Source of the DNA: Cristatella mucedo
Taxonomy: Eukaryota; Bryozoa; Phylactolaemata; Cristatellidae
Reading direction: 5' to 3'
Length of the DNA stretch: 64,000 nucleotides
Assembly (NCBI GenBank): GCA_009760855.2
Contig: WPIO01000311.1
Span: 37,504-101,503 of the forward strand
How positions within the stretch are numbered: the first letter of the stretch is position 1; every line of letters begins with the position of its first letter. The notes under the pieces were generated by a model that did not search any database, was not told the DNA's origin, and saw only the letters and a program-made list of their open reading frames with translations. Positions 1,126 to 58,714 of the stretch are shown piece by piece. A program made the position numbers and the translations under genes.

Positions 1126-1216
1126 ATGTACTCAATAGTTCCACAAAACGTGTGAGTAACCGATGCATCACTGATCGACTCCTTGCATAGGCCAAAATCT
1201 GTCAGCTTGATGTGCC
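1126..1216 (-). CDS. S6K-L exon v6: DFG and activation loop
   Basis: The 91-bp exon encodes [20 protein letters not shown] then [11 protein letters not shown]. The donor AT|GTAAGC splits the Met codon exactly as in the right copy. The APE exon does not occur in positions 1-1125, so the gene continues beyond the window. Confidence 0.94.

Positions 1217-58714: not shown

Follow-up and report, generated by a model that had tools for sequence, protein, structure and literature searches.

Two tandem p70 S6 kinase genes on one strand of a Cristatella mucedo contig, very probably an old duplication

When two sets of p70 S6 kinase (S6K) exons stand next to each other, do they represent two genes, two alleles assembled side by side, a gene with its relic, or one complex locus? 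This question matters for S6K in particular, as it is a main output of TORC1, and it is raised by a 64,000-nucleotide stretch of a Cristatella mucedo contig (hereafter, the window). We consider it very probable that the window holds an old tandem p70 S6K duplication, consisting of two minus-strand genes that would have separate promoters and divided roles and whose exon 4 was probably converted.

Searching the window by tblastn with human S6K1 (a query whose kinase part was checked afterwards) revealed two S6K exon sets, termed here copies A and B and both on the minus strand in head-to-tail order, and no third copy. The splice sites delimit the following features:

43855..58714, minus strand: S6K copy A, exons 1-13
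58714-58597, 57515-57447, 57298-57227, 57060-56927, 52556-52456, 51808-51718, minus strand: exons 1-6 of copy A
51248-51158, 48489-48448, 48057-47992, 47763-47701, 46049-45972, 44159-44052, 43926-43855 (stop), minus strand: exons 7-13 of copy A
1126..8379, minus strand: S6K copy B, visible part
8379-8262, 5214-5146, 4994-4923, 4536-4403, 4227-4127, 1216-1126, minus strand: exons 1-6 of copy B

Copy A has 13 exons, which start just upstream of the kinase domain and run on to a stop whose last base is 43855 (exons 7-13 measure 91, 42, 66, 63, 78, 108, and 72 bp). Copy B runs past the window edge after the exon ending at 1126, and its exons 7-13 lie outside. The six exons shared by A and B have common lengths (118, 69, 72, 134, 101, and 91 bp) and phases, each of their junctions shows an AG acceptor and a GT donor, and exon boundaries fall exactly at positions 1126 and 58714. 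When joined, the six-exon frames of both copies are free of stops over 194 codons. The copies are about 35 kb apart, or 23 kb if copy B begins at 20.9 kb, and no gene was recognised between them among the single open frames examined, six of them by Pfam, though a small gene with several exons might lie there. Being adjacent, on the same strand, and alike in exon structure, A and B qualify as tandem paralogues. Overall, the tblastn matches, the S6K1 similarity, and the splice-site reading of both copies agreed well with the first-pass annotation, which had proposed two tandem, diverged p70 S6K genes on one strand with six exons alike in length and phase. Two repeats reside in introns of copy A: a 47-bp tandem repeat of about four copies (97% matches, 52979-53159) between exons 4 and 5, and about forty copies of AGG (45598-45716) between exons 11 and 12.

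The predicted proteins are S6Ks. In a PDB search, the joined peptide of copy A gave a gap-free alignment with human S6K1 spanning residues 9-352 (344 residues, E = 1.9e-175), and all nine entries below 1e-140 were human S6K1. A 139-residue piece of copy A likewise matched S6K1 at 1e-76, with RSK (S6K alpha-3) as the next best at 9.2e-59. Pfam detected the Pkinase domain in A and in B (E = 1.3e-45 for B) and Pkinase_C in A, and the rows closest to copy B by path in a seven-row tree were copy A, followed by three other S6Ks. The catalytic motifs, previously described as intact in both copies, are indeed all present in A and extend from GKGGYG through DFG in B, where APE lies beyond the window. 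Both copies also keep the T-loop Thr (TFCGT), which is the PDK1 site. Their peptides are identical at 157 and different at 37 of 194 positions. The earlier observation that these differences fall mainly around the glycine loop was correct in part: residues before and just after the loop do differ, but substitutions are also present around alpha-E and in the activation segment (EAIDELAM vs ESISDASV).

The C-terminus of copy A differs from that of human S6K1 in its last exon:

43855..43926, minus strand: last exon of copy A, with Ser at the hydrophobic-motif Thr position and a frame without the autoinhibitory tail

Copy A keeps the turn motif TPVDSPDD, and its hydrophobic motif reads FLGFSY, with Ser in place of the human S6K1 Thr (which we take to be Thr389, the TORC1 site). 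A hallmark of S6K is an SP-rich autoinhibitory tail at the C-terminus; the frame of copy A ends in a stop 19 residues past FLGFSY. Inspecting minus-strand frames of at least 18 aa between 20.9 and 43.9 kb for a downstream tail exon yielded four SPRR-type matches, none convincing by eye. Five poly(A)-signal words occur within 4 kb downstream of the stop, and copy A may include an additional spliced exon past its stop-bearing exon. With Ser in its hydrophobic motif and so short a tail, copy A would be controlled differently by TORC1; our literature search gave no report of a Thr-to-Ser change at the S6K hydrophobic motif.

At the opposite end of the genes, we sought the start exons. The N-terminus of S6K carries a TOS motif, a TOR-binding type of motif of the form FDIDL, and one region between the copies stood out:

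20776..20871, minus strand: candidate first coding exon of copy B, with the TOS-type motif FDLEL and donor GAG/GTTGGC, in a CpG-rich island
20001..21000, no strand: CpG-rich island, GC 0.63-0.68, CpG observed/expected 1.23-1.30 vs 0.80 in the window

The candidate exon, found by motif, starts at 20871, and FDLEL follows MAV; its layout resembles that of S6K N-termini, the fly protein having FDLELHD. The start-anchored pattern M-x(1-4)-F[DE][ILVMF][DE][LIM], which was drawn up after the match was known, has a single match in the 35.5 kb that separates the copies and none in 100 Markov sequences, and the motif alone is expected 0.28 times by chance. In a very loose tblastn with N-terminal peptides, no hit among the matches listed was outstanding apart from the known exons and the 20.8 kb match (E 0.21, tied with a match elsewhere). 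The exon phases require one linking exon, of length 3n+2, between 20776 and 8379. Strict splice rules, passed by one candidate in the region, did not reveal this linking exon; the same rules, again passed by one candidate, revealed no start exon of copy A in the 5.3 kb upstream, up to base 64000, and this exon may lie beyond that base. Judging from the sequence, 20871-20776 is likely copy B's own first exon, and the CpG-rich island is its probable promoter region.

How old is the duplication? In exons 1, 2, 3, 5, and 6, synonymous codons are identical in 40/115 cases vs 43.0 expected from base composition, and third positions are equal at 51/151, while first and second positions remain 72-96% identical. 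Since synonymous sites are saturated in these five exons, A and B are neither alleles nor the outcome of a recent duplication, and the pattern is that of an old duplication under purifying selection. Introns 1-5 of the two copies show no same-orientation similarity at E 1e-3: four of the five pairs have no alignment, and the first has two short ones in opposite orientation. Other alignments between the A and B regions are repeated at several places or link non-corresponding places.

To place the copies relative to other S6Ks, we compared 190 columns among A, B, human, and fly. A and B agree in 156 columns, A and human in 151, A and fly in 149, B and human in 147, B and fly in 147, and human and fly in 144; with exon 4 excluded, A and B agree in 115/145 and the remaining pairs in 105-111/145. 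The closeness of A to B is thus only slightly above that of human to fly. Only 2/190 columns are informative among the four sequences, one grouping A with B and the other A with fly. Columns in which exactly two of the four agree are similarly scattered (A-B 4, A-human 4, B-fly 3, human-fly 3, A-fly 2, B-human 1), and in the seven-row tree no fork is supported, with A and B mutually nearest by path. As the sister grouping of A and B lacks support, the duplication could predate this lineage. Candidate outgroups were unusable: 81 pattern matches in viral contigs yielded one confirmed distant kinase (26%), and 218 in genome contigs yielded four bacterial kinases (22-28%). A 240-base piece of copy A had no match among plasmids.

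These comparisons also bear on the alternatives to two genes. A haplotype origin, in which A and B are versions of a single gene placed next to each other in the assembly, is suggested by the tandem layout only and is scarcely credible, given that amino acids differ at 37/194 positions, that third positions in the five exons match at just the 51/151 noted above, and that matching introns lack same-orientation alignments. We rejected side-by-side alleles on the saturation of synonymous sites, in agreement with the first-pass annotation, which had argued against them from the protein divergence. That copy B is a partial or decaying relic beside one working S6K is improbable in our assessment. 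The window includes only six kinase exons and the probable first exon of B, as a relic could leave; however, this part has no stop in 194 codons, its visible splice sites are intact, and its first and second codon positions are conserved despite saturated synonymous sites. Moreover, B departs alone from the other sequences (A, B, human, and fly compared) in 6/190 columns, vs 4/190 for A. The absence of a copy A first exon from the 5.3 kb upstream within the window would fit one complex locus, in which a first exon is joined to alternative kinase halves via alternative or trans-splicing. Yet copy A reaches its own stop before the probable copy B start exon and the CpG-rich island, and its start exon may lie past 64000, making such a locus less probable still than a relic. 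We therefore retain the old tandem duplication of two genes as the preferred reading.

One exon behaves differently from the others:

56927..57060, minus strand: exon 4 of copy A, candidate gene-conversion tract
4403..4536, minus strand: exon 4 of copy B, partner tract, by its similarity to exon 4 of A

Exon 4 is 89.6% identical in nucleotides between A and B, with third positions equal at 34/44 and synonymous codons identical in 31/40 cases vs 21.0 expected (p 0.0004). Across 155 sites, the maximal stretch of identical codons measures 13 sites when no mismatch is allowed, 18 with up to one, and 22 with up to two (permutation p 0.0008, 0.0008, and 0.0002; composition-null p 0.002, 0.0004, and 0.0004). 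A short gene-conversion tract is the simplest reading of this pattern. Codon bias or an RNA-level constraint could also produce the likeness, a sub-question within the tandem-duplication reading and compatible with it, and we rate this nearly as probable as its opposite. GC3 of exon 4 is 0.82 in B at shared residues and 0.93 in A, more than in any other of the 12 copy A exons counted, and the excess of identical codons has a p of only 0.03 when the null is the amino-acid-specific codon usage of exon 4 itself. Against codon bias and constraint stand the low composition-null p values of the codon runs (0.0004-0.002) and the equality of 69/71 bases in the segment bounded by mismatches at offsets 38 and 110.

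The window also harbors likely remnants of mobile elements. LINE-like reverse transcriptase fragments of at least two families, presumably L2/CR1-like, lie at 5921-7146, 18272-18634 (minus strand), 21461-22889, 23294-23950, 24605-25903, 36360-36893, 49500-50060 (minus strand), and 61717-62238. Pfam detected RVT_1 in three of six non-kinase frames (24605-25900, 5921-6736, and 21634-22044), and the remaining fragments were named by self-similarity alone. Among viral contigs, the LINE protein gave five pattern matches, of which none was confirmed. An open frame at 33235-33624 (minus strand), which resembles a TTF-type zinc-finger (hAT-like) transposase, had no Pfam match. In addition, an 821-bp (GA)n array (88% matches, 29525-30345) has GC-rich sequence nearby at 27-28 and 30-31 kb (GC about 0.6); no gene was recognised there on cursory inspection.

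Taken together, the features of the locus suggest how an old tandem duplication would operate. A and B would be expressed from separate promoters, and each kinase would be activated through its T-loop Thr, the target of PDK1, and its hydrophobic motif, the target of TORC1. Both would phosphorylate ribosomal protein S6 as well as further translation factors. Both copies would have been retained because their expression or regulation was divided, and exon 4 was probably made alike again by gene conversion over a short tract. On sequence grounds, both S6K genes are most likely in use, and a division of roles between them in TOR signalling is a reasonable guess. A more specific account, which we regard as unlikely, is that A and B form a linked pair of great age, which may predate this lineage, that conversion keeps the kinase core segment of exon 4 alike, and that regulation has split, A having lost its autoinhibitory tail and using Ser at the TORC1 site, and B retaining its own TOS-bearing start. 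If that were true, a single animal would carry, at a single locus, two differently gated S6 kinases. A natural pair in which one member has a variant hydrophobic motif and a short tail would allow one to ask which S6K controls are separable; on sequence alone, the locus is one further invertebrate S6K duplication.

Pairs of S6K genes were reported in other invertebrates. Daphnia pulex has two S6 kinases, S6K1 and S6K2 (PMC2978223), the kuruma shrimp Marsupenaeus japonicus has an S6K1 and an S6K2 that differ in tissue distribution (PMC9481175), and S6K1 and S6K2, identified as given there, were measured in Tribolium (PMC8567023). The first two resemble the locus described here in comprising two S6K genes, in their case in an arthropod; the available passages on them make no mention of genomic linkage, whereas A and B are linked. 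An invertebrate S6K pair is therefore not new, and the pairs in Daphnia pulex and Marsupenaeus japonicus weaken the earlier premise that a single S6K is usual in invertebrates. No linked S6K pair was named among the titles and abstract openings listed in our literature search, mostly outside the subscription literature.

The vertebrate S6K1 and S6K2 are like A and B in being two TORC1-regulated paralogues with a common kinase core; unlike A and B, they are not known to be linked. The copies do not pair one-to-one with the vertebrate genes, both being slightly closer to S6K1 than to S6K2 (264/356 vs 251/353 for A; 148/193 vs 140/190 for B). Human S6K1 (RPS6KB1; PDB 4l43-4l46, 7n91) differs from copy A in having Thr rather than Ser in the hydrophobic motif, and the copy A frame ends shortly after that motif, as described above; common to the two are the kinase domain with its C-terminal extension, the TPVDSPDD turn motif, and the FLGF(S/T)Y motif.
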